A stretch of DNA of 27,835 bases. Origin: a virus. Both the position numbers and the translations under genes were made by a program. Each line of letters begins with the position of its first letter. Within the stretch, counting starts at the first letter, position 1. The notes beneath the pieces were generated by a model. It saw only the letters and a list, made by a program, of their open reading frames with translations. It had not been told where the DNA came from and searched no databases. Of the stretch, positions 12,399 to 25,061 are shown one piece after another. The stretch lies in the IMG/VR virus record IMGVR_UViG_3300034106_003187, positions 1 to 27,835 of that record. One strand, given 5' to 3'.

Positions 12399-12812
12399 AT
12401 GATTACAAAATCAACAATTAGCAACTTAGGAAAATCCTCTCAACCTATTAAAGCAGAAAAAGGGGTATCAGAATTCATGGGTTATTTACTATCTAGTGTA
12501 TCTTCAGCTCATATTACTCATACTTATCAAAAAGATAGAGCACTGTCTACACACTTAGCATTAAGTGATTATTATACAGGTTTAGATGATCTAGCTGATA
12601 ATTTTATTGAATCCTACCAAGGATTACATGGACAAGTAGATTTTATGGTAGAAGGTAAAAGATTTGATCAACCTGAGTCTTGTATTAAAGAATGCTATGA
12701 TTACATAGAAAAAACTAGAGGTATGTTTAAAGAAAGTTTTTTGCAAAATATAATTGATGAAATTCAAGAACTTCATGCTAAAACTTTATATAAATTGAAG
12801 TTTGTTTGTTAA
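12399..12812 (+). CDS. Small helical protein, possibly ferritin/Dps-like (DUF5856-type)
   Basis: 137 residues, ATG start 20 nt after the preceding stop, last gene of the + strand block. The segment from about residue 35 to 75 (HITHTYQKDRALSTHLALSDYYTGLDDLADNFIESYQG) has spaced His, Asp and Glu residues in a long amphipathic helix pattern seen in Dps/ferritin-like proteins; a final helix spans about 110-135. It resembles small phage proteins grouped as DUF5856. If ferritin-like it could bind DNA or iron, or act as a head protein, but not all canonical metal ligands can be assigned by eye. Family assignment is tentative; that it is a real gene is likely from position and reading frame. Confidence 0.6.
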   Translation: MITKSTISNLGKSSQPIKAEKGVSEFMGYLLSSVSSAHITHTYQKDRALSTHLALSDYYTGLDDLADNFIESYQGLHGQVDFMVEGKRFDQPESCIKECYDYIEKTRGMFKESFLQNIIDEIQELHAKTLYKLKFVC

Positions 12813-14331: not shown

Positions 14332-14503
14332 TATCTAACTTCTCTATAAAATCATTCAGTTCTTTATAATATCCAGGATCATTTGGATTATAATATTTAT
14401 CTATGCTAAGGACTAATCTTTTTTCAATATTGAATATTTGTACTTGTTTTTTAAGATATCTTATCTCATAATCTAAATTAGTTAATTTCAGAAGAGGATT
14501 CAT
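14309..14503 (-). CDS. Small coiled-coil-like protein
   Basis: 64 residues, ATG at 14503, overlapping both neighbours (26 nt with the upstream gene, 23 nt with the downstream one). The N-terminal 30 residues form a heptad-like helix (LLKLTNLDYEIRYLKKQVQIFNIE), followed by a second helix near the C-terminus. No function recognised. Tight overlaps on both sides argue that it is translated as part of this operon. Confidence 0.5.
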   Translation of the reverse strand: MNPLLKLTNLDYEIRYLKKQVQIFNIEKRLVLSIDKYYNPNDPGYYKELNDFIEKLDNDKTYAT

Positions 14504-15074
14504 TTTCAGTAATAGCTTGATTAATTAATTCTTTACAACCTTTATATAAAGTTTCTTCAAAAGATTTCTTTTCTTTTAAAGTTGTAAAATTAGGTAATTT
14601 ATCTAAACCAGTATCTAAAATATAATTATTCTCTGAAAAAATTATTTCTATATTATTGTATATGGCAAGATTTATTATTTCATTAAAACATTTTTCTAAA
14701 AATCTTTCACCTAATGATTTACCTTTTCTCTTTATTTTTAAAGATTCATAATAGTTTTTATCTATTACTATAGGACTAAAATCATCTTTAAAATTTAATC
14801 TATGTATTAAAGATTTAAAATTAATATTTCCGCTATTTAAATATAGACCTATATGACCTTTTCCAAAAGATATAGATATATCATCATATTTTTCTAAAAT
14901 ATATACCATATTAATATATGGATTATTATCAGGTAGTCTAAAATATTCATTTATTTTAGTAGAAGTAACTGTATTTAAAAAAGCATAATTATTAAATTTA
15001 TTCTGATTACTTTTAATAAGACTAGTTTCATTATATCTAAATCTAATATAATAATGTTGTGGTAAATAAAACAT
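14478..15074 (-). CDS. Uncharacterised 198-aa protein downstream of the E1-like gene
   Basis: ATG at 15074, 12 nt after the stop of the E1-like second exon, so it is probably co-transcribed with the ubiquitin-like cassette. The N-terminal half is rich in aromatic and beta-strand-like segments (HYYIRFRYNE, INMVYILEKYDDISISFG, HIGLYLNSGN); the C-terminal half is helical with an acidic Ser-rich tail. No motif recognised. It could be an accessory or substrate protein of the cassette, but only adjacency supports that. Confidence 0.6.
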   Translation of the reverse strand: MFYLPQHYYIRFRYNETSLIKSNQNKFNNYAFLNTVTSTKINEYFRLPDNNPYINMVYILEKYDDISISFGKGHIGLYLNSGNINFKSLIHRLNFKDDFSPIVIDKNYYESLKIKRKGKSLGERFLEKCFNEIINLAIYNNIEIIFSENNYILDTGLDKLPNFTTLKEKKSFEETLYKGCKELINQAITENESSSEIN

Positions 15075-15086
15075 ATTATTTAAATT

Positions 15087-15350
15087 TTAAATTGTATGTG
15101 TCATAAACATTGTAGGTATATTCAGTTCAGTAAAAAATGGAATAAGTCTTCTTTCATTATCATTTATTACACTAACAAAATTACTTAAAATACCAGTAAT
15201 TAATCCACCTATTACAGCAGCTGAATGACTAGTTTGTTTATATCCACAAGGTAATTCTTCTATTTCACTATCATCATATAGATGTTCTCTATAATTATCT
15301 ATATCTTTAGGTAGAACAGCAAATATTTGTAACAATTCTTGACTTAATCT
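15087..15350 (-). CDS. E1/ThiF-like ubiquitin-activating enzyme, exon 2 (catalytic Cys and C-terminus)
   Basis: Second exon of the E1-like gene, joined to 16458-16904 by removal of the intron at 15351-16457. It supplies residues 150-236, starting RLSQELLQIF, which continues the exon 1 end FIDG into FIDGRLSQE, a sensible E1/ThiF sequence. It contains LPCGYKQTSHSAAVIGGL, with C184 in the position of the E1 thioester cysteine (compare the CT.xS.P motif of E1 enzymes), then a hydrophobic helix typical of the ThiF C-terminus. Read alone it opens only with a GTG inside the intron boundary, has no leader of its own and lacks the nucleotide-binding part, so it is not a separate gene. The role of the Cys is inferred by pattern. 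Confidence 0.85.
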   Translation of the reverse strand, partial: RLSQELLQIFAVLPKDIDNYREHLYDDSEIEELPCGYKQTSHSAAVIGGLITGILSNFVSVINDNERRLIPFFTELNIPTMFMTHTI

Positions 15351-16457
15351 CACTTAACCCTTAAATTTCTTTAAGGAGTGGAGTACATTTTCTTCTTTTT
15401 TTTTAAAGAAGGAATTCCCTTCAAAGGATTTATTCTCAATTAAGAGGTTCATCCATACTCTCTACACTACTATAATCATATTACCTATTATAGTTAGCAC
15501 GGTATTACCTTATTAAAAACTTAGGCTTCACCGTTAGCACAATTTGTACCCCCAAAATTATTGGGTTGGAACTCTACTCTATTAATATCACTATTAATAG
15601 GGGCAGTAAAAACTTTTTTACAATTTTTACATAAATATCTTTGAGTTTTAAAATCTTTATATTTTTCAAAACCATTTTTTACAGTATTAAAAGAATTACA
15701 GCAAATACAATTAGGTATATTTTTTTCAGCTATAAAAATTTTATACTTTAAAATTTCATTAAATTTTTCTAGTTTTCTTACTAAAAATAATGAAGGTTCT
15801 TTGTATATAAGATTATAAAAATCTTTATAAGATTTTGTACTAATAGTTAATTTATATATTAAATTACTATTTGATTGACTATTGGATTTTATAGAATTGT
15901 ATATATTTAAAGTTGTTAAACATTCAGATAACTCCTTGATAAATTTTTCAGAATTACTATAAATATATACTCTTTTTTGTATTTTTGGTTTGTTGATAGT
16001 TAAAGTACATCCACCATCACCATCAAATACACCTCTAATAAAATCTCCTATAAATTCATTATTTATTATAGGCATTTTTAAAAATTCCTTATTTACTATA
16101 CTTTTGGAAGGTAAACACCCCAATTTTATTAAATCTTTATTAAAAGCTCTTGACCCAGAATATAATGTAGAATTATTTCTTTTATGAATCATTTTAGCTT
16201 TATAGAATTTAAAATAAGGAAAGTATTTTTGTATATCTTTTAACAAATAATCATCTAAATAATGTAAACTTATTCTAGAATGTATATTATTTTTATCTGT
16301 AAAAGATGTGCATCCATCTGCATAAAATAAACCTAAAACATAGGCTTTTTCTTTTGTGTCAATTTTTTCAAAATCTTTTCTGTACATTTGTTATAACATT
16401 TAACAAATTTACAAAATATTTAAATATAATTATAAATTATTTTTATTTTTTTAATCT
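15351..16457 (-). mobile_element. Group I intron interrupting the E1-like gene
   Basis: 1107 nt. The two flanks share AGATTA, but only one junction leaves U as the last exon base and G as the last intron base, the group I rule: GATGGT|AGATTA after splicing. The 3' part has a T4 td-like core: P4 ACGGU (15530-15534) with ACCGU (15499-15503), J4/5 GAA, P5 GCCU/AGGU, J5/4 AAU, followed by GCUAA as in td. Just before the 3' splice site is a 7-bp hairpin closed by a GAAA tetraloop (15359-15376), a likely P9. A LAGLIDADG endonuclease gene fills 15521-16387 and its last codons run into P4/P5. I could not find the internal guide sequence that would pair with GAUGGU, so P1 is unresolved. Confidence 0.85.
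15521..16387 (-). CDS. LAGLIDADG homing endonuclease with C-terminal zinc ribbon
   Basis: 288 residues, ATG at 16387, 70 nt inside the intron. Two LAGLIDADG motifs, LGLFYADG (residues 18-25) and FIRGVFDGDG (about 116-125), each with an acidic metal ligand, make it a monomeric two-repeat nuclease. Residues about 227-260 form a zinc ribbon (Cys at 227/230 and 253/256, with KNGF and RYLCKNCKKVF), like the DNA-binding ribbons of transposases. The last 25 or so residues (APINSDINR to NGEA) are translated from the intron core and the stop TAA lies in P5, a common arrangement for intron-encoded endonucleases. Expected role: cutting intron-less alleles so that the intron spreads by repair. Nuclease class is secure; target specificity is inferred from the insertion site. 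Confidence 0.9.
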   Translation of the reverse strand: MYRKDFEKIDTKEKAYVLGLFYADGCTSFTDKNNIHSRISLHYLDDYLLKDIQKYFPYFKFYKAKMIHKRNNSTLYSGSRAFNKDLIKLGCLPSKSIVNKEFLKMPIINNEFIGDFIRGVFDGDGGCTLTINKPKIQKRVYIYSNSEKFIKELSECLTTLNIYNSIKSNSQSNSNLIYKLTISTKSYKDFYNLIYKEPSLFLVRKLEKFNEILKYKIFIAEKNIPNCICCNSFNTVKNGFEKYKDFKTQRYLCKNCKKVFTAPINSDINRVEFQPNNFGGTNCANGEA

Positions 16458-16904
16458 ACCATCTATAAATATACAATTATCTTCTGGATTTGTTTTTACA
16501 TAATTTACCCAATTATCAAACATAACTTTTCTAGCTTTCATGTTATCAAAACAAGAAATCATTATAGGACCAGATATAGACTCACTTGTATAAAGTTCAT
16601 ATTGCTCTATATTATCTTGTCCAGATAAATCTCTAATAACATTTGTTACAGCTTGAGTTTTGTTTTCTCCTACATCTGAATGTCTGAATAATTGATTACC
16701 TAAATTTAAATTCTCTACTCTATCATCATCAAATAAATATAGATTATGAGCTTGTCTTGATAACAATAAACTAGTCCATGAACCTATACCACCACATCCA
16801 CCAATAATAATATCTAAAGGTTCTGTTCTAAACCAAGGAGCTTCTTTAAATCTTGAAAATTTATCAGCTACTTCTTCTAATTGTTCTTCTGTTAAATATG
16901 ACAT
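16458..16904 (-). CDS. E1/ThiF-like ubiquitin-activating enzyme, exon 1 (adenylation domain)
   Basis: First exon, residues 1-149, ATG at 16904 one nt after the JAMM gene's stop. It carries the E1/ThiF/MoeB Rossmann ATP-binding motif GGCGGIGSW (35-43), acidic residues after strand 2 (LFDDDRVENLNLGNQ, D59-D61 and N65/N67), the R74 and K82 of the adenylation site, and CFDNMKAR with D120. Without splicing the frame stops five codons past the junction, giving a 153-residue product with ATP-binding parts but no catalytic cysteine. Spliced to 15087-15350 the protein is 236 residues, close to PRTRC-type ThiF proteins. Expected reaction: adenylation of the ubiquitin-like protein's terminal Gly, then thioester formation for transfer to the E2-like partner. 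Strong for family, inferred for substrate. Confidence 0.9.
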
Positions 16905-16905
16905 A

Positions 16906-18078
16906 TTAAAATATTTTTTTTAATTCTGATTCTTCTGGATCTATAATTAAATCTACAGCTTGTACTAAATCTGTAATTAGTTCAGGAAATTCAGTATAAT
17001 AGCTTTCTAATTCAGCTTTTACTTTTTGAGCTAATAGATTATAATTGTCAAATTTAGCACCAAATACATCATCAGCTACTAATTCAAATTCTCCTATCAA
17101 CATATCATATACTTCATCAACTTGTTCACTATTAAGTTCTTTTAAAGTAACTTCTAATGTTGATAAACATTCTTGTAAACTAGGTTCTAAGTTTTGATCT
17201 GAACCATAAATCCAAGTTTTAATAAAATCTACTAATTTTTTATTAATGTTTACTACACTATTTGGATTAGTAAAAGCATTATAAGAATTTTCAATTTTAT
17301 CAATATCAAAATCACTACCGTAATCAGTAAATTTTAATTTAGTTTGCTTAGTTTTATAATCAGTATTAGTTACAAAACTTGATAAAGAACTATAAGTATT
17401 ATTTTTAACTTTCTTAATTTCAGAATCTTTAATTACAGATACTGTTCTTTCTTTAAATTCAGAAGGTATTTCAGGTATTACATTACAATTAGCTGTAAAT
17501 ATACAAGTTTCATCTTCTTGAATATTATCTATAGTAATTTGTTTAACATCACCGTTATCAGAGATATATGTATAATGACCTTTATTCTCAACTTTTCTTT
17601 TACCCCACCAAGCAATTTTACAATCAAATTCACCTTTATTGTTTACTATTAAAGATAAATAGTACATCTCACCTTCTGAATATTCATACAAATCTTCTAA
17701 ATCTGTACCTGAATGAAATACTTTCATACTATTATGAGAATGTAATTTACCAGCTTTATATACAGGTGGTAAATATTTATTCTTCATCTTAAACATTAGT
17801 ACAGAGTCATCTGATTCATATTCAGTATATGCTCCAGTACCTTTATCCATTAAATAAAAATCTGTACAAGTAAATTTCAAATTAGAAATATCTGATAAAT
17901 CACCTTCTGTTTTATAGAATAAAACACCTGACCATTCTACATCATGTATTTGATTACATAGATACCATATTTTAGCTAATAGTTCTTGTGTAATATATAC
18001 ATTAGGTCTTTGAGTAAATTCTATTTTATTTAATTTCTTGTATTTGTTGCTGGTTTGTTCCTCCAGCTGTTTGTCCAT
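16906..18078 (-). CDS. JAMM/MPN+ metallo-isopeptidase (deubiquitinase-like) with long C-terminal region
   Basis: 390 residues from the ATG at 18078; ATGs at 18081 and 18093 are also possible but increase the overlap with the upstream E2-like gene. Residues about 25-150 are an MPN+ domain with the full JAMM signature: E48 (VEWSGVL), H113 and H115 (KLHSHN), S123 and D126 (HSGTD), spacing HxHx7SxxD. These ligate catalytic zinc in deubiquitinases such as Rpn11 and in bacterial BilD/PRTRC A-type proteins. The C-terminal half is acidic and helical (about 250-390, ending EESELKKIF) without a recognised motif. Expected role: maturing the ubiquitin-like precursor or removing it from targets. Family assignment is strong; substrate is inferred from the flanking genes. 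Confidence 0.9.
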   Translation of the reverse strand: MDKQLEEQTSNKYKKLNKIEFTQRPNVYITQELLAKIWYLCNQIHDVEWSGVLFYKTEGDLSDISNLKFTCTDFYLMDKGTGAYTEYESDDSVLMFKMKNKYLPPVYKAGKLHSHNSMKVFHSGTDLEDLYEYSEGEMYYLSLIVNNKGEFDCKIAWWGKRKVENKGHYTYISDNGDVKQITIDNIQEDETCIFTANCNVIPEIPSEFKERTVSVIKDSEIKKVKNNTYSSLSSFVTNTDYKTKQTKLKFTDYGSDFDIDKIENSYNAFTNPNSVVNINKKLVDFIKTWIYGSDQNLEPSLQECLSTLEVTLKELNSEQVDEVYDMLIGEFELVADDVFGAKFDNYNLLAQKVKAELESYYTEFPELITDLVQAVDLIIDPEESELKKIF

Positions 18079-19228
18079 CATTATTGATACCATAGTTTTT
18101 AATTTTTAATTGTGCATTATAATTGAAAATGTATTCTAATTTAAATATTAATTTTTTTAAATATGATTCTCTAGGTAAAATATATATTTTACCTTTTTTT
18201 AAATTAACATATTTATTACTTTTTAAAAGTTTTCTTGTAATTATTTCATGATTTCTTATAAAAATAGGTTTATCTAAAAAAGACTCATCTATTATTTTAT
18301 AATTATCAAATTTATATAACTTATCATTTATAAATTTATACTCACTACTGTAAGAATGAGTTAAATGTTGAAAAAGTTTAGTTTGTAATTCTAATTCATT
18401 TATAAAATCAGTATTTATAACAAGTTTATACAATCTTAAATTATTACTAAAATCAAGTTTAAATTTAAGTTTACTAAAATCTATATTTTCAATTATTGAT
18501 ACAGCAGCATCTAATCCAACAACATTTAATTGCTTTTTAAAATATTGAAAATCAAAATTCATTTCATAAACTGTACTAAGATCTAAATCTTTAATACCTA
18601 AACTACTCATTCTCATATATGGACCACCTGATTCAGATTCCCATTCTAGATAAGGTTTGATATTCATTATAATGTTTTTAACACAATCTAAACGAATAAT
18701 ACTTGAACTATTTATTATAGATTTATAATTAGCTAATACACCTGAACCTAAACAAAAATTTATAAACCAATGAAGTTTATTACAACTTCTTGGTAAATGA
18801 GAGTGAGTATAATCATCTACATAATGTTCTTCACTATAAGTTTCTCTATTACCACATAAGTAAAGTCTTCCATTATAATCAAATCTTATAGAAAAATATA
18901 AATCATTTAATATTTCTTCTTGTTTACCATTAGTTATTTTAATTTCAGGATAATATAATGTTATTGATATTGATTCAACTTTAATACATGAATCTAATTC
19001 ATACATAATATCATAAGAATCCCATATATAATCTACACTATAAGGTATTTCATATTCATCTAAACATTTTTTAAATTCTTTAAAATATGCAATAAATTCA
19101 TTTTCATTACCTGGTTTACATTTTTTAATCTTAAAACTAAATGCTTCTTCAGTATTATCACCTATTCCAGAATAATCCCATCTATCAAAATCTAAATTAG
19201 GATTCTCTTGTTGATTCCAATATATCAT
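18026..19228 (-). CDS. E2-like conjugating enzyme (Prok-E2-type, divergent)
   Basis: 400 residues, ATG at 19228. Residues about 85-165 follow the E2/UBC order of elements: a beta strand with YP (93-94, LYYPEIKI), a strand with SIRFDYNGRLYL, a His-rich HSHLP segment (H142, H144), and FCLGSG with C159, comparable to the HPN...GxxCL block that holds the catalytic Cys of E2s. It lies between a ubiquitin-like gene and JAMM/E1 genes, as E2-like genes do in bacterial Bil and PRTRC cassettes. The C-terminal 200 residues are Lys-rich, beta/alpha, and end in a Gly/Thr/Gln-rich tail overlapping the JAMM start. Similarity to classical E2s is weak by eye, so the call leans partly on context; a structure prediction would settle it. 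Confidence 0.65.
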   Translation of the reverse strand: MIYWNQQENPNLDFDRWDYSGIGDNTEEAFSFKIKKCKPGNENEFIAYFKEFKKCLDEYEIPYSVDYIWDSYDIMYELDSCIKVESISITLYYPEIKITNGKQEEILNDLYFSIRFDYNGRLYLCGNRETYSEEHYVDDYTHSHLPRSCNKLHWFINFCLGSGVLANYKSIINSSSIIRLDCVKNIIMNIKPYLEWESESGGPYMRMSSLGIKDLDLSTVYEMNFDFQYFKKQLNVVGLDAAVSIIENIDFSKLKFKLDFSNNLRLYKLVINTDFINELELQTKLFQHLTHSYSSEYKFINDKLYKFDNYKIIDESFLDKPIFIRNHEIITRKLLKSNKYVNLKKGKIYILPRESYLKKLIFKLEYIFNYNAQLKIKNYGINNDGQTAGGTNQQQIQEIK

Positions 19229-19251
19229 AGTTAATAATTTATTAAATAAAA

Positions 19252-19290
19252 AAGGTACAGGTAGAATAAAGCAAAAACTACCTGCACCTT
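19252..19290 (-). terminator. Intrinsic terminator or attenuator after the ubiquitin-like gene
   Basis: On the - strand, arms 19278-19290 and 19252-19264 pair over 13 bp with a single G-U and a 13-nt loop, followed by TTTTATTT. It sits between the ubiquitin-like stop (19324) and the E2-like start (19228). Read-through past it would be needed to express the E2, JAMM and E1 genes from the same promoter, unless they have their own. Confidence 0.8.
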
Positions 19291-19323
19291 AATTATTGTG
19301 GTTTTACGTTATTTGAATAATAA

Positions 19324-19878
19324 TTATTCAGAATCTAATTGAGAAACTATTGAATTATATTTACTTCTCAAATCTTTTTTATTACCTTCTAGACCTTCTA
19401 GAACTTCAATTGCTTCTTGAATTTTATCTTTAGATGTATTCAAGTCTTCAATAATCTGAGAAATATCAATTGTCTCAGTTTCTTCTTCTACTTCTTCTAA
19501 ACTATCTAGATACTCAAACCAAGAATCTACTGCCTCATTAAGTTCTTCAGTAGTCATACTAGAATATGAAGGAAAATAGTCTATAGCTTCATCATATTCA
19601 GCTCTAGCTTCTTTAGCAATAGTATAGCATGCTTCTCTGCTTCTTAGACCAGATTTATTTTTCTTTGGAGTTAAGAACAAATCAAATTCATCTGAATCTG
19701 GAAGAAGAGCAGAATTTACAGAAAGCTCAGTTTGGTTTTGACCAATAAAAACTCTCATGTTAGATGTTGTAATACCTTGATTAGTAAGTTCATTTTTTAA
19801 ATCTCCCCAGGTAACTGCTGATGAACTAATAACTTTAGAAGTTGTTCCGTTATAAACGGTAATTGTTTTTTGTGACAT
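19324..19878 (-). CDS. Ubiquitin-like protein with C-terminal helical extension
   Basis: 184 residues, ATG at 19878. Residues 1-70 read as a beta-grasp domain: beta hairpin (KTITVYNGTTSKVISSS), helix (TWGDLKNELTNQG), then strands (MRVFIGQNQTELSV, ALLPDSDEFDLFLTP). The domain ends with PKKNKSG (G77), resembling the K/G end of PRTRC protein C-type ubiquitin-like domains. Residues 78-184 are an acidic, helical extension (EELNEAVDSWFEYLDSLEEVEEETE...) probably coiled coil. The protein ends in DSE, not Gly, so conjugation would need cleavage near G77, for which the neighbouring JAMM protein is a candidate. The fold call rests on secondary-structure pattern plus linked E1, E2-like and JAMM genes. 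A strong hairpin follows the gene. Confidence 0.7.
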   Translation of the reverse strand: MSQKTITVYNGTTSKVISSSAVTWGDLKNELTNQGITTSNMRVFIGQNQTELSVNSALLPDSDEFDLFLTPKKNKSGLRSREACYTIAKEARAEYDEAIDYFPSYSSMTTEELNEAVDSWFEYLDSLEEVEEETETIDISQIIEDLNTSKDKIQEAIEVLEGLEGNKKDLRSKYNSIVSQLDSE

Positions 19879-19957: not shown

Positions 19958-20716
19958 CTACTTTTTAAATTCATTTGGTAGTAGCAACCTTTCTTTAGGA
20001 TAATCAGCTCTAATATATAAAGCTTTGTAGGTAGAATAGAATAATTCTATACCTGAATGTAATCCATATTTATTTATGTAAGATTTTAATACTACAGGAA
20101 ATAAATCTATTTCCAATATACCACTCAATAATTTTTCTGCTGCTTTATCACCAAGACCTTCAATACCTTTAATACCATCTCCAGATTGACCAGCTATTAA
20201 ATCATAGGCCATAGAGTAATTCTCTTTAAATTCAGATGGATTATTATATTCAAGTTTCTTGTAATCATATACAGGTACATTTAGATTTTTGATATCTTTA
20301 TCTGGACTTGAGATTAAACACTCATATTCATCTTTAAAATGAATATAGTAGCTTAAACATAAATCATCAGCTTCCCAAGATACTTCATCATCAAATGTAG
20401 CCATAGATTTGTATTCAGATTTAAACAATAAGAAATCTTTAACCTCACTTAAAAATGGTATAGGTTCTTTAAATTTTCTATTTTGTTTATATTCTGGATA
20501 AAACTTCAGTCTAAAATTATCTCTGCTTCTTACTGTATAACAACATATATAGTAATCAGCTTCTGTAGCTATTAGAATGTTTTTGATTATTTCTTCAGCA
20601 TGTAGCTTACAATCATCAAATGTTTTTTCTTTCTCAGCATCTTTTTTATTATGAGCTGCTAAAAATGCTATTGAATCTGCATCAATTATTGTTAGTTTCT
20701 TCTTTATTAACATCAT
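19958..20716 (-). CDS. FEN-like 5'-3' exonuclease/flap endonuclease
   Basis: 252 residues; two adjacent ATGs at 20716 and 20713, overlapping the upstream nuclease by 35 nt. It has the PIN/5'-nuclease acidic centre: IIDADSIAF (D12, D14), VSWEADDLCL (E114, D116, D117), SSPDKDI (D138, D140), then AGQSGDGIKGIEGLGDKAAEKLL (173-196), the helix-3-turn-helix DNA clamp with D179. Length and order match phage 5'-nucleases such as T4 RNase H and T5 D15. Expected role: removing RNA primers and flaps during phage replication. Neighbouring primase, SSB-like and helicase genes fit this. Confidence 0.93.
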   Translation of the reverse strand: MMLIKKKLTIIDADSIAFLAAHNKKDAEKEKTFDDCKLHAEEIIKNILIATEADYYICCYTVRSRDNFRLKFYPEYKQNRKFKEPIPFLSEVKDFLLFKSEYKSMATFDDEVSWEADDLCLSYYIHFKDEYECLISSPDKDIKNLNVPVYDYKKLEYNNPSEFKENYSMAYDLIAGQSGDGIKGIEGLGDKAAEKLLSGILEIDLFPVVLKSYINKYGLHSGIELFYSTYKALYIRADYPKERLLLPNEFKK

Positions 20717-21176
20717 CTTCTAAAAGTTGTTTTATTCTTTCAACACTTGCTAAGACACTTTTAATTGTACTTGGCATAAAATAATGTTTAGGATCTTTTT
20801 CAGATAGAAGTTTATATAACAGCATCTTTCTTCTTAATTTAAAATCAGGAGTTTGCCAACCTTTAACCTCAATAATGAATTTATCTTCTACAATAAAATC
20901 AGGTAAATGAGTTATAGGCTGTTCTACATTACTCCTTGTTTTTTTAAATACTCTACTGTTATCATCTTTCCATATTTCAGAAGGATAAACAAATTTGTCT
21001 TGCAATATGTAATTCACAGATTCATATTCAAACTTAAGTCCTGATTGTTGTAATATTTTATAAGTAACAATCTCTAAAGGACTTCTAAAAGTAACACCAT
21101 TATAAGTTAAAGAAGTCTTTTCTTCTCTAGTAAGCGTATATGAAGGTTTTACTTTTTTAACTTTATTATTTTTCAT
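20682..21176 (-). CDS. PD-(D/E)XK endonuclease
   Basis: 164 residues, ATG at 21176 overlapping the primase stop by 4 nt (ATGA). Motifs of a PD-(D/E)XK fold: E35 in FRSPLEIVTYKIL, PDF with D93, and EVKGW with E103 and K105, followed by a helix (PDFKLRRKMLLYKLL). The N-terminus is Lys-rich. Length and composition fit small phage resolvase-like or TnsA-like nucleases. Probable role: cutting branched or recombining DNA alongside the FEN-like nuclease and primase; substrate not identifiable by sequence. Confidence 0.85.
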   Translation of the reverse strand: MKNNKVKKVKPSYTLTREEKTSLTYNGVTFRSPLEIVTYKILQQSGLKFEYESVNYILQDKFVYPSEIWKDDNSRVFKKTRSNVEQPITHLPDFIVEDKFIIEVKGWQTPDFKLRRKMLLYKLLSEKDPKHYFMPSTIKSVLASVERIKQLLEDDVNKEETNNN

Positions 21177-22153
21177 ATAATTCCAAAATTTTCCATTAAC
21201 CTTTTACTATCATCATATCCATATTTCTTATAAAAATCACTAGGGTCTTTAGGTTCATTTATTGGATTGAAAATATAACTACATTCATATAACTTTGAAT
21301 GATCCTCAGCAGCTTTAATACCAGGTTCATCATTGTTATAGTATATATATAATTTATTAAATCTATCTTTTAAGTCTTGTATTATGTCTAAACTTATTCT
21401 TGAATTCTCTGAACTAGGAGCTACAGATGTTATACCTAACTTATGTAAAGTCATGATATCTTTCTTAGAACTGGTTATAAGACAAGTATCCCCTCTATTT
21501 GGAAGCTTGTTATAACCTTGTACTATACCACCTGTATTTGACCAAAATTTCTCACCTTTATTTCTACTTGGAAGGTAAATTTTATATTTATAAGGTTGTT
21601 CATAATAGGCAAATCCTAATTCATTCTTTTTAATTTCAAATGATAAACCATTAATAAAATAATGGGATATTGAATGTACATCAAAATATTCAAGAATCTC
21701 TAAATCTATTCCAAATTGTTTCCAATAAAGTAAATCTTTATCAGAATAATTTTTTTTCTTAATTTGAAATATGGTATCTTTCTTATCTTCTATTTTTATT
21801 TCTTTATTAGGAAGTCCATAAAAACCTAAAGTTGGTTTCTTCTTATCTCCATTTAAACCTAAATTGAAATCATTATTAATTACATTGAAGACTTCTTGTA
21901 TATTTAAAGAATACCTTTCTTTTAGGTAATTCCAGCAAGTATATGACTTGTCACTAGGATCTCCATAATCTTTGTAAAATAATGTTCCATGTACACATCT
22001 AATAATAGATGAGGCTATTCTTTCTCCTCTCCAACTACTACAAAACTTTTTATTTAATTGAGTAAAGTTAGGTTCATAATAACTAAATATATCATACTCA
22101 CTTATTAAATTAAGTATGTTTTCTTTATTCAATAAAAATTTAATACCATACAT
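21173..22153 (-). CDS. DnaG-type TOPRIM primase
   Basis: 326 residues, ATG at 22153. The C-terminal part is a TOPRIM domain: TCLITSSKKDIMTLHKLG (about 223-240) with a K-D pair in place of the usual catalytic Glu region, LYIYYNNDEPGIKAAEDHSKLY (268-289, D275 like the DxD..G motif), and KDPSDF (D303, D306). The N-terminal segment (CSSWRGERIASSIIRCVHGTLFYKDYG...TCWNYL) resembles the primase zinc-binding module in layout but lacks a clear CHC2 zinc set. Expected role: RNA primer synthesis with the nearby DnaB-like helicase. It starts after a hairpin that closes the SSB-like gene. Confidence 0.85.
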   Translation of the reverse strand: MYGIKFLLNKENILNLISEYDIFSYYEPNFTQLNKKFCSSWRGERIASSIIRCVHGTLFYKDYGDPSDKSYTCWNYLKERYSLNIQEVFNVINNDFNLGLNGDKKKPTLGFYGLPNKEIKIEDKKDTIFQIKKKNYSDKDLLYWKQFGIDLEILEYFDVHSISHYFINGLSFEIKKNELGFAYYEQPYKYKIYLPSRNKGEKFWSNTGGIVQGYNKLPNRGDTCLITSSKKDIMTLHKLGITSVAPSSENSRISLDIIQDLKDRFNKLYIYYNNDEPGIKAAEDHSKLYECSYIFNPINEPKDPSDFYKKYGYDDSKRLMENFGII

Positions 22154-23449: not shown

Positions 23450-23663
23450 TTACTCACCTTCATTATATAAATCAATAGCTTCAGATACTAAACCTAAATC
23501 ATTTGATATTGATAATTCTTTAAACATACCTACAGGAGATTTAGCTGGATATTGACCATCATTATTAGTAATAAACTTATAAGACATTTTATTATCAGGA
23601 CCTTTCTCAACTTTAGTATATAGAACTACTGAAAATAAACCTTCTAAAGTCAAATAATCATCT
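23450..23663 (-). CDS. AAA/RecA-like phage ATPase, exon 2
   Basis: Second exon, joined to 24583-25061. Codon 160 (Val) is split GT|A across the junction, and the product continues GKMVDDYLTLEGLFSVVLYTKVE, a smooth family-like sequence. This part supplies 70 further residues, including beta strands (FSVVLYTKVE) and an acidic C-terminus (AIDLYNEGE). Read alone it opens only at a TTG next to an in-frame stop and has no Walker motifs, so it is an exon and not a separate gene. Confidence 0.85.
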
Positions 23664-24582
23664 CAATTATTGATAGTACCTTTTTTAGTAAGGTAATTAT
23701 TCTTACAATACTATCCTTAATGTTTCCATTAAGTTTCGACTATATTTTCATAAAAATATATTTTGATTTCACAATCTTATTATTGTTTAAATTTCTTCTA
23801 ACAGTCATTTCACCTACATTTAAAGCTAAATGAACTTCATTTACAGTATTAAATATAGTTTCACTGTTGTTTATAATATCTTTAACTAAAATTTTAAATT
23901 TTGTATAGATTTTTCCTTTATTAGCCTGCCCTATTTTTAATTTATGTTCTTCAGAAATAATTCTTCCTTTTAAAGCTAAACTTCTTTTTTTTAAAGTTTC
24001 TTTAGTAGGTTTTACTCCCTTTTTTCCCATTTTCTTCTTACTTTCTTCAGAATGTTTTAGTCCAAAAGTACCTTCTCCACCCAAAGTAAAATTTAATAAT
24101 CTAGGAAATTTAGAAATATAAAATTTTTCTTTTTCTTGCCAAACATTAAAATCAACTTCTTCAAGAAGTTCAATTATAGGTTTTTTATCTAATTTTAGAA
24201 TGCTTAAAATCCAATTACATAAATGTTTATTATGTTTTGTGTATTTAGCATTATCTATATGTTTATTTAATCTTTTTTCTAAAGATTTAGAAGTCATACC
24301 GACATACCTTATCTCTAAGGTATTTGGATGTTTTAAACAATATATTTTTATGTCTGCTCTTTCCATTAAAATCAATTACTTTTCAATGTACTCTCCCACA
24401 ACAGGAGATAGTCTGTGAACCTTACTCATATTACAATAATTATAACTTAGAGTCTTGGCTGCTGATTGTCCACGAATATACAATAAATTTTCAAACATTC
24501 AAACCTATCTTTTCAGATTATTTTGTAGTTTTATTGTCTTTAGGATATCCCAGCAATTAAACAGATAATGGCAGATTAAGCT
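23664..24582 (-). mobile_element. Group I intron interrupting the ATPase gene
   Basis: 919 nt. The junction with U before and G at the end is AATGGT|AGATGA. P1 is visible: exon AAUGGU (24583-24588) pairs with the internal guide GCCAUU (24567-24572), ending in the expected U-G at the splice site. P7 is visible too: GACUAU (24408-24413, inside the typical GUUCACAGACUA block) with AUAGUC (23738-23743). A 7-bp stem (23709-23715 with 23672-23678) near the 3' end is a likely P9-type helix. The GIY-YIG endonuclease gene lies between the two P7 strands, and its stop overlaps P7 3'. These independent pairings make this a confident group I call. Confidence 0.92.
23740..24366 (-). CDS. GIY-YIG homing endonuclease with NUMOD-type DNA-binding repeats
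   Basis: 208 residues from the ATG at 24366 (MERADIKIYC); a TTG three codons earlier is less likely. GIY-YIG nuclease domain at the N-terminus: KIYC (7-10) and RYVG (20-23), with R32, H36 and a Glu in WQEKEKFYISKF. Next are repeated short Lys-rich motifs (GLKHSEESKKKMG, GVKPTKETLKKRS, GRIISEEHKLKIGQANKGK), as in NUMOD3 DNA-binding stretches of I-TevI and related enzymes, then a C-terminal NUMOD1/HTH-like region (NVGEMTVRRNLNNNKIVKSKYIF). It is encoded in the P8 region of the group I intron. The class differs from the LAGLIDADG enzyme of the other intron. Confidence 0.92.
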   Translation of the reverse strand: MERADIKIYCLKHPNTLEIRYVGMTSKSLEKRLNKHIDNAKYTKHNKHLCNWILSILKLDKKPIIELLEEVDFNVWQEKEKFYISKFPRLLNFTLGGEGTFGLKHSEESKKKMGKKGVKPTKETLKKRSLALKGRIISEEHKLKIGQANKGKIYTKFKILVKDIINNSETIFNTVNEVHLALNVGEMTVRRNLNNNKIVKSKYIFMKI

Positions 24583-25061
24583 ACCATTTTACCTACAGTC
24601 TTCATCTTAAGATTACCTAGATTATCTTTTTCTGGATGCCATAAGAAATATACTTTCAAATCTCTTCTAGAAATCCTAGATGCCTCAATAACTTTACCTA
24701 AGTTTACACCTATATCAGCAAATTTACCATAACCATTCTCCTTAGCCCTCTTCATAAATTCAAAACTCATAATATATTGAGCATCATCAATAACTATGTT
24801 CTTAATATCTATTCTATTATCTGAAATATATTTAATACCAGTAGATATTTGAGCAGCATCTGAACTCTCAAAATAATTACCTCCTTCAGATAATTTACCA
24901 GAATACATTTTTTTCCAACCTCTAAAAGGTAAGTCTTTACCAGCTACATTAACTACTACAGTTTCTTTAGGATTTAAACCTTTAACACCTATCTCAGGTA
25001 TTTGACCATAAGAACTGGATTTACCTGTACCAGATTCACCTACAATTGCAATTGAACTCAT
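24583..25061 (-). CDS. AAA/RecA-like phage ATPase, exon 1 (Walker A and B)
   Basis: First exon, residues 1-159, ATG at 25061 overlapping the stop of the 48-aa HTH gene (ATGA). Walker A is GESGTGKSS (8-16, K14 S15), Walker B KNIVIDDAQY (88-96, D92 D93), and residues FLWHPEK (139-145) match the sensor-like strand of phage AAA_24/Sak4-type ATPases. Spliced with 23450-23663 the protein is 230 residues, a usual length for that family. Such ATPases are linked to single-strand annealing and recombination in phage replication; the exact role here is inferred. Unspliced translation stops two codons past the junction, giving a product with both Walker motifs but no C-terminal strands. Confidence 0.88.

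Follow-up and report, generated by a model that had tools for sequence, protein, structure and literature searches.

A viral DNA fragment of 27,835 nucleotides (27.8 kb; IMG/VR record IMGVR_UViG_3300034106_003187), hereafter the window, carries four genes for a ubiquitin-like protein (Ubl), an E2-like protein, a JAMM/MPN+ metallopeptidase and an E1/ThiF-like enzyme. The list of open reading frames (ORFs) of the window shows that these genes are real, contiguous and all on the minus strand (Table 1), and the coordinates and strand given for the four linked genes in a preliminary description of the sequence hold. Beside their replication genes, a large set of phages from gut and environmental sources, the cultured crAss001 included, carries these four genes in this order. 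We regard it as probable that the cassette is a phage-specific operon for Ubl conjugation and deconjugation which acts in the replication stage of infection.

The fold of the Ubl was assessed with an AlphaFold (AF2) model built from a 69-sequence alignment. The mean confidence of the model (predicted local distance difference test, pLDDT) was 91.4, reaching 94-97 over the first 70 residues, and its elements follow a b-b-a-b-b order (strands 4-10 and 13-19, helix 24-33, strands 41-45 and 64-71). In a Foldseek comparison with the PDB, the top matches were mostly ubiquitin-like domains; ubiquitin was matched with a template modelling (TM) score of up to 0.70 (target-normalised), and Caldiarchaeum ubiquitin was among the best matches. 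The Foldseek E-values were modest, none being below 0.001, as is expected for a small domain. A beta-grasp fold is confidently predicted for the window Ubl, in agreement with the ubiquitin-like protein proposed earlier for 19324-19878. Gly77, which stands at the position of the ubiquitin tail at the end of the fold, is the sole invariant column of the Ubl alignment (69/69) and lies within the motif K-x-K-S-G. Most members continue with a long extension (median over all members, 125 residues), and 4 of the 69 end 1-3 residues past Gly77 (one residue in L114 and L115, two in L106 and three in L034). The combination of an invariant glycine with variable tails implies that the Ubl is a precursor, predicted to be processed by a cut after Gly77; the preliminary description does not have this putative processing site. 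Low-score matches of the helical tail to APG6_N and Aurora-A_bind were rejected as coiled-coil noise. The extensions of Asinivirinae Ubls (L005:9128-9805, L007:9297-10037 and L009:4703-5308) end in an acidic-hydrophobic SEIDDMFxFV, reminiscent of the interaction tails of single-stranded DNA-binding (SSB-type) proteins.

The JAMM ligands E, H, H, S and D are all invariant in 86-87 non-redundant sequences. The ligands named previously as E48, H113, H115, S123 and D126 are present; that numbering begins at an internal Met, residue 6 of the ORF, whereas E53, H118, H120, S128 and D131, the numbers used here, begin at its first ATG. The JAMM profile finds Pyrococcus JAMM1 with an E-value of 0.006, and its comparison with PRTRC_A by hhalign gave 1.7e-6. 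In Flavobacterium phage Fpv1 (L006:5487-7608), an endonuclease gene on the opposite strand interrupts the gene for the JAMM; the copy in FpV4 (L010) is intact.

The E1 gene of the window is interrupted, and removal of 15351-16457 gives one frame of 236 residues that reads ...FIDG/RLSQELLQ... across the joint (slash). The profile phrog_15670 runs through this joint without a gap, exon 1 aligning to profile positions 4-143 and exon 2 to 141-225. Exon 1 alone matches Pfam ThiF (PF00899) at 2.7e-13, and the family consensus does so at 4e-27. The nucleotide loop, K82 and D120 are conserved across the family alignment, and Cys184 of the crossover loop (spliced numbering) is invariant (76/76). The residues singled out earlier, R74, K82, D120 and candidate C184, are correct for the spliced protein only. 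GenBank usually names the E1 of annotated carriers a "thiamine biosynthesis protein", with the Ubl and the E2-like protein "hypothetical". The E1 name suggests a ThiS/ThiF-like sulfur-carrier pathway for cofactor or tRNA modification, and the E1 scores best with ThiF models. However, all ThiF scores fall far under the curated cut-offs (57 vs 159 bits), the JAMM and the Cys/His partner are constant companions, an internal Gly77 needs a peptidase, and no rhodanese or sulfurtransferase gene was seen in the neighbourhoods inspected. A sulfur-carrier pathway is therefore considered very unlikely.

The E2-like protein carries His144 and Cys159, both invariant in 70/70 sequences. Its AF2 model presents helix 42-58, strands 63-69, 84-99, 104-117 and 122-132, an active-site loop and helices 164-174 and 180-195, with the HSH...C loop linking strand 4 to helix 164-174. 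The modelled order of elements is compatible with that of UBC domains. Several results weigh against reading the cassette as a full conjugation pathway. Foldseek searches of the PDB and BFVD with the model gave no significant UBC match, and nothing convincing was found for the protein in Pfam, NCBIfam, PADLOC or PHROGs. By hhalign, the E-values were 0.14-0.22 against UBC and 0.06-0.09 against PRTRC_B, at most slightly better than those of negative controls, whereas the same profile comparison recognised PRTRC_B against UBC at 1.4e-4; the four UBC sequences and the ubiquitin used in these comparisons serve as a rough yardstick only. The E2 role is inferred from gene position and active-site residues, since no significant UBC match was obtained. 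The earlier designation of the cassette as "complete" hinges on the E2-like protein, whose fold is topologically compatible with UBC and without a library match.

These results could also mean that the "E2" is not an E2, and that the cassette is a Ubl-E1-JAMM system comparable to archaeal SAMP, in which an unrelated Cys/His protein serves as the adaptor or is itself the target. Such a system would account for the failure of Foldseek and profile methods to find UBC and for the long and variable His-Cys spacing (11-28 residues). It fits less well with a predicted element order that suits UBC, with an invariant His followed by the invariant Cys in the loop that leads from strand 4 into a helix, and with a gene that always lies between those for the Ubl and the JAMM; a relative (L034) carries HSHPN...NGLC, and the alignment to PRTRC_B, although non-significant, is collinear at C-x-G. 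We judge this possibility to be somewhat unlikely. The locus of that relative (L034:4995-7068) contains two tandem E2-like genes, the first of which reads YLHSHPN...NGLCTGNG with the classical HPN triplet; the second lacks HSH and retains the Cys, which would suit a partner that is inactive or a variant. In a single pairwise comparison at high divergence (window vs L002), the ratios of nonsynonymous to synonymous substitution (dN/dS) were 0.34 for the Ubl, 0.45 for the JAMM and 0.87 for the E2-like gene, which is suggestive of a fast-evolving E2-like protein.

A Ubl conjugation pathway, the chemistry that we think probable, would proceed as follows. Given the invariant glycine and the variable tails, the JAMM would cleave the Ubl precursor after Gly77 and remove the extension. 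The E1, in which the motifs are present, would adenylate Gly77 and take the Ubl onto Cys184. Cys159 of the E2-like protein may then accept the Ubl and hand it on to lysines of a target protein from phage or host; this is the weakest of the steps. Finally, the JAMM could take the tag off the target.

The distribution of the cassette was examined with alignment queries. A single-protein scan of viral contigs returned 3 loci only, and with an alignment as query, JAMM relatives were found encoded on 296 IMG/VR stretches; the E2-like alignment was too divergent for use as a scan query. The order Ubl-E2-JAMM-E1 on one strand was seen in nearly all of the approximately 120 loci inspected, as judged from the genes detected, and shorter sets occurred mainly at locus ends. 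Unlinked JAMM and E1 genes in relatives had been named as an outcome contrary to a cassette; linkage is near-universal in these loci. Of 106 loci, 102 have a match to a primase profile upstream of the cassette, and the operon with primase and FEN-like nuclease that had been described for the window is borne out by Pfam matches nearby (Toprim_2 and 5_3_exonuc_N). Annotated carriers include crAss001 (gp79-gp78-gp77-gp76 for Ubl-E2-JAMM-E1), DAC15, Flavobacterium phages Fpv1 and FpV4, cr128_1, cr111_1 and bajarodcaudo virus 1. Only 2 matches came from a scan of 84,980 bacterial and archaeal genomes. The first is to a Spirochaetia metagenome-assembled genome (MAG), in which a 6.8-kb contig, probably a piece of a phage, holds the entire cassette; the second is a weak match to the JAMM only in a Heimdallarchaeota MAG. 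The family is essentially viral. The cassette is a core virus-borne family and not a borrowed bacterial defence system, a point absent from the preliminary description.

In Steigviridae, the cassette is located between the genes for primase and uracil-DNA glycosylase (UDG). This slot is filled differently in three sister phages, cr108_1, phi14:2 and cr116_1 (L126, L129 and L130), none of which is among the E1 or JAMM matches listed. Domain checks identified gamma-glutamyl cyclotransferase, ATP-grasp, COOH-NH2 ligase, aminotransferase-type amidotransferase and amidoligase in Cellulophaga phage phi14:2, and ATP-grasp, amidotransferases, COOH-NH2 ligase and amidoligase in cr108_1. In cr116_1, the slot holds genes annotated as rIIA/rIIB-like, with short partial matches to rIIA proteins. 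Among the Intestiviridae and Suoliviridae inspected (crAss002, cr11_1, cr113_1 and cr130_1), no such cassette follows the primase. Since one predicted protein-ligation system replaces another at one locus, the exchange suggests that the slot serves an exchangeable host-interaction or protein-tagging function and not that of a fixed, indispensable replication enzyme. Two features of the data limit this argument: three sister genomes document the exchange, and the genes of cr116_1 are called rII-like from the annotation of the record together with the short partial matches. Amidoligase cassettes of this kind (ATP-grasp, COOH-NH2 ligase and glutamine amidotransferase), known from phiEco32, LUZ24-like phages and phi14:2, resemble the Ubl cassette in their predicted covalent ligation of proteins or peptides and in filling the same primase-UDG slot in sister Steigviridae, whereas their enzymes and chemistry are unrelated to it.

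Transcription of the middle genes of crAss001, which serve mainly DNA replication and nucleotide metabolism, takes place from 10-30 min, during the shutdown of host transcription (PMC8375218). The crAss001 cassette is placed among these middle genes, and it is therefore likely to be expressed at that time. Among the roles that such a cassette could have, reversible modification of a protein met during replication and cell takeover is the most likely, and we propose it tentatively. Countering a Bil-type system, tagging of host proteins and protection of phage particles, which the preliminary description had raised, would be further candidate roles.

The earlier likening of the cassette to the component sets of Bil and PRTRC was fair, the gene order of PRTRC plasmids being matched as well. 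PRTRC plasmid cassettes form the class of row 6d of Iyer et al. 2006 (PMC1779556). They show the order C(Ubl)-F-B(E2)-A(JAB)-ThiF and thus share with the phage cassette a Ubl, an E2 or E2-like protein, a JAB peptidase and a ThiF in the same succession, and hhalign relates the phage E1 to PRTRC ThiF (2.5e-16) as it does the JAMM to PRTRC_A. By contrast, the Ubl tail is Lys-Gly in PRTRC and Lys-Ser-Gly in the phages, the phage Ubl and E2-like protein are not detectably related to their PRTRC counterparts by hhalign, and the phage cassette is phage-borne and beside a primase. The phage E1 scored 44.6 bits with TIGR03736 (PRTRC ThiF; cut-off 144.75) and the JAMM 12.6 with the PRTRC_A model (cut-off 101.8), and the PRTRC_B model matched none of 70 E2-like members. 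PRTRC E, F and ParB partners were absent from the annotated neighbourhoods of crAss001, DAC15, cr128_1, cr111_1 and FpV4.

The shared order, the significant relationship of the E1 and JAMM and a primase adjacent almost everywhere would agree with a PRTRC-like function, in which the Ubl modifies the replication proteins of its own element, in replication or maintenance. A Priestia koreensis plasmid (L143:471-6145) likewise places E2 (family D)-JAMM-ThiF downstream of Rad52 and dnaN genes, parallel to the replication-linked arrangement of the phages. Yet the missing partners and the unrelated E2s and Ubls separate the two, some crAss-like relatives replicate without the cassette, and the function of PRTRC itself is unknown. 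We consider a PRTRC-like function somewhat unlikely.

The Bil (BilABCD) antiphage system is also a set of Ubl, E2, JAMM and E1. The phage cassette has this component set in common with it but is carried by the virus, not the host, and its E2-like protein is of another family. In PADLOC, the phage E1 matched BilD weakly (2.5e-5), and the BilA, BilB and BilC models had no match in the cassette. With CBASS type II it shares an E1 domain and a JAB recognised by the PADLOC E1-E2 and JAB models; however, the phage E1 is not fused to an E2, a CD-NTase is lacking and a separate Ubl is present. In its parts and their order, the cassette is similar to PRTRC and Bil, but by profile it belongs to neither. 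A cassette of this composition could disturb a host Ubl-based defence of the Bil or CBASS type, either by competing for parts or by JAMM stripping of conjugates. The shared component set, the weak E1 matches to the PADLOC E1-E2 and BilD models and the exchange with rII-like genes in cr116_1 are in line with counter-defence, T4 rII being classically tied to escape from prophage exclusion. Stripping, however, needs the JAMM alone, yet the phages also retain the E1, the E2-like protein and the Ubl, whose active sites are invariant; the very wide occurrence beside primase differs from that of patchy anti-defence islands; and three of the four Bil models find no counterpart. Counter-defence is regarded as unlikely.

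Returning to the conjugation operon, we see a little less than an even chance that this self-sufficient pathway (precursor, E1, new E2 family and JAMM) attaches its tag covalently to proteins of the host or the phage in infected Bacteroidota and is interchangeable at its slot with unrelated peptide-amidoligase tagging and rII-type genes, so that viruses would have converged on protein tagging in more than one way to solve a single host problem. Another phage pairing of a Ubl with a JAB peptidase is that of the lambda/T1 tail-assembly Ubl (TAPI) with the JAB-NlpC protein TAPK (PMC1779556); those are tail-assembly genes without an E1 or E2.

The E1 insertion and its endonuclease gene are a feature absent from the preliminary description. 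The insertion has boundaries of the form U/...G/, and the exons join exactly. The LAGLIDADG protein that it encodes (15521-16387) has a zinc-ribbon-like C-terminal region (NCBIfam zinc-binding domain). An insertion at the same site in L103 is a group I intron by Rfam (RF00028, 64.6 bits, E = 3e-14). Since the window's own insertion had no Rfam match, we infer its group I identity rather than read it directly. Endonuclease-bearing insertions occupy the same E1 codon in L002/L003 and L083, and a shorter one does so in L103/L104. The presence of these insertions, with and without endonuclease genes, in several distinct phages marks a recurrent homing site at the conserved DG/R motif. The Sak4 gene of the window is also interrupted (23465-25058), with its N-terminal half at about 24582-25058, its C-terminal end at about 23465-23683 and a homing endonuclease ORF (23740-24375; phrog_314) between the two parts.

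Further features of the window are included in Table 1. The start of the JAMM gene overlaps the end of the E2-like gene. The profile of gene 5 was matched in about 25 loci, crAss001 gp75 among them. At 12399-12812, adjoining giant plus-strand ORFs, a DUF5856 protein (Pfam 4.2e-15) is encoded; its match to PHROG 858 designates it a starvation-inducible regulator.

Table 1. Cassette genes and neighbouring features of the window (slashes mark insertion boundaries).
Feature	Position	Strand	Remarks
Gene 5, weakly conserved, without known domain	14478..15074	-	directly downstream of E1 in some lineages
E1 exon 2, residue 150 to end	15087..15350	-	phrog_15670 3.8e-17; invariant Cys184 (CGYKQT)
Intron-like insertion in E1, 1107 nt	15351..16457	-	between Gly149 and Arg150 (GGT/AGATTA...AAGTG/AGATTA)
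LAGLIDADG homing endonuclease gene inside E1 insertion	15521..16387	-	Pfam LAGLIDADG_3 4.7e-16; phrog_4645 3.4e-32
E1 exon 1, residues 1-149	16458..16904	-	GGCGGIGS nucleotide loop, Q71, K82, D120; Pfam ThiF 2.7e-13
JAMM/MPN+ metallopeptidase, 395 aa	16906..18093	-	ligands E53, H118, H120, S128, D131
E2-like candidate, 400 aa	18026..19228	-	invariant H144 and C159 (70-sequence alignment)
Ubl precursor, 184 aa	19324..19878	-	beta-grasp residues 1-77 (19648-19878), ending K-K-N-K-S-G77; then helical C-terminal extension
5'-3' exonuclease/FEN-like nuclease	19958..20716	-	upstream of Ubl; Pfam 5_3_exonuc_N 2e-10
Primase with Toprim domain	21173..22153	-	Pfam Toprim_2 1.9e-4

No description of a crAss-like Ubl conjugation cassette was found in the open-access literature, subscription journals being outside the search, and the main texts of PMC6235969 (crAss001), PMC7886860 (Yutin 2021), PMC10569736 and PMC12118408 (Bacteroides phages) make no mention of ubiquitin or ThiF.

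Most of what is known of prokaryotic Ubl conjugation concerns host immunity (Bil and CBASS) or mobile-element cassettes of unknown role (PRTRC). If the proposed reading is true, a conserved, virus-restricted Ubl pathway in the crAss-like replication arm would constitute a ubiquitin-like pathway that is encoded by viruses outside eukaryotes, and the "thiamine biosynthesis" and "hypothetical" genes of the cultured crAss001, DAC15 and Fpv1 would be given a function. Owing to the conserved K-S-G tail, a Ser-Gly remnant of +144.053 Da is predicted on target lysines once trypsin has cut behind the conserved K75. The cassette is directly testable, since the phage-host pairs of crAss001, DAC15 and Fpv1 are culturable and K-S-G predicts this diagnostic mass tag.

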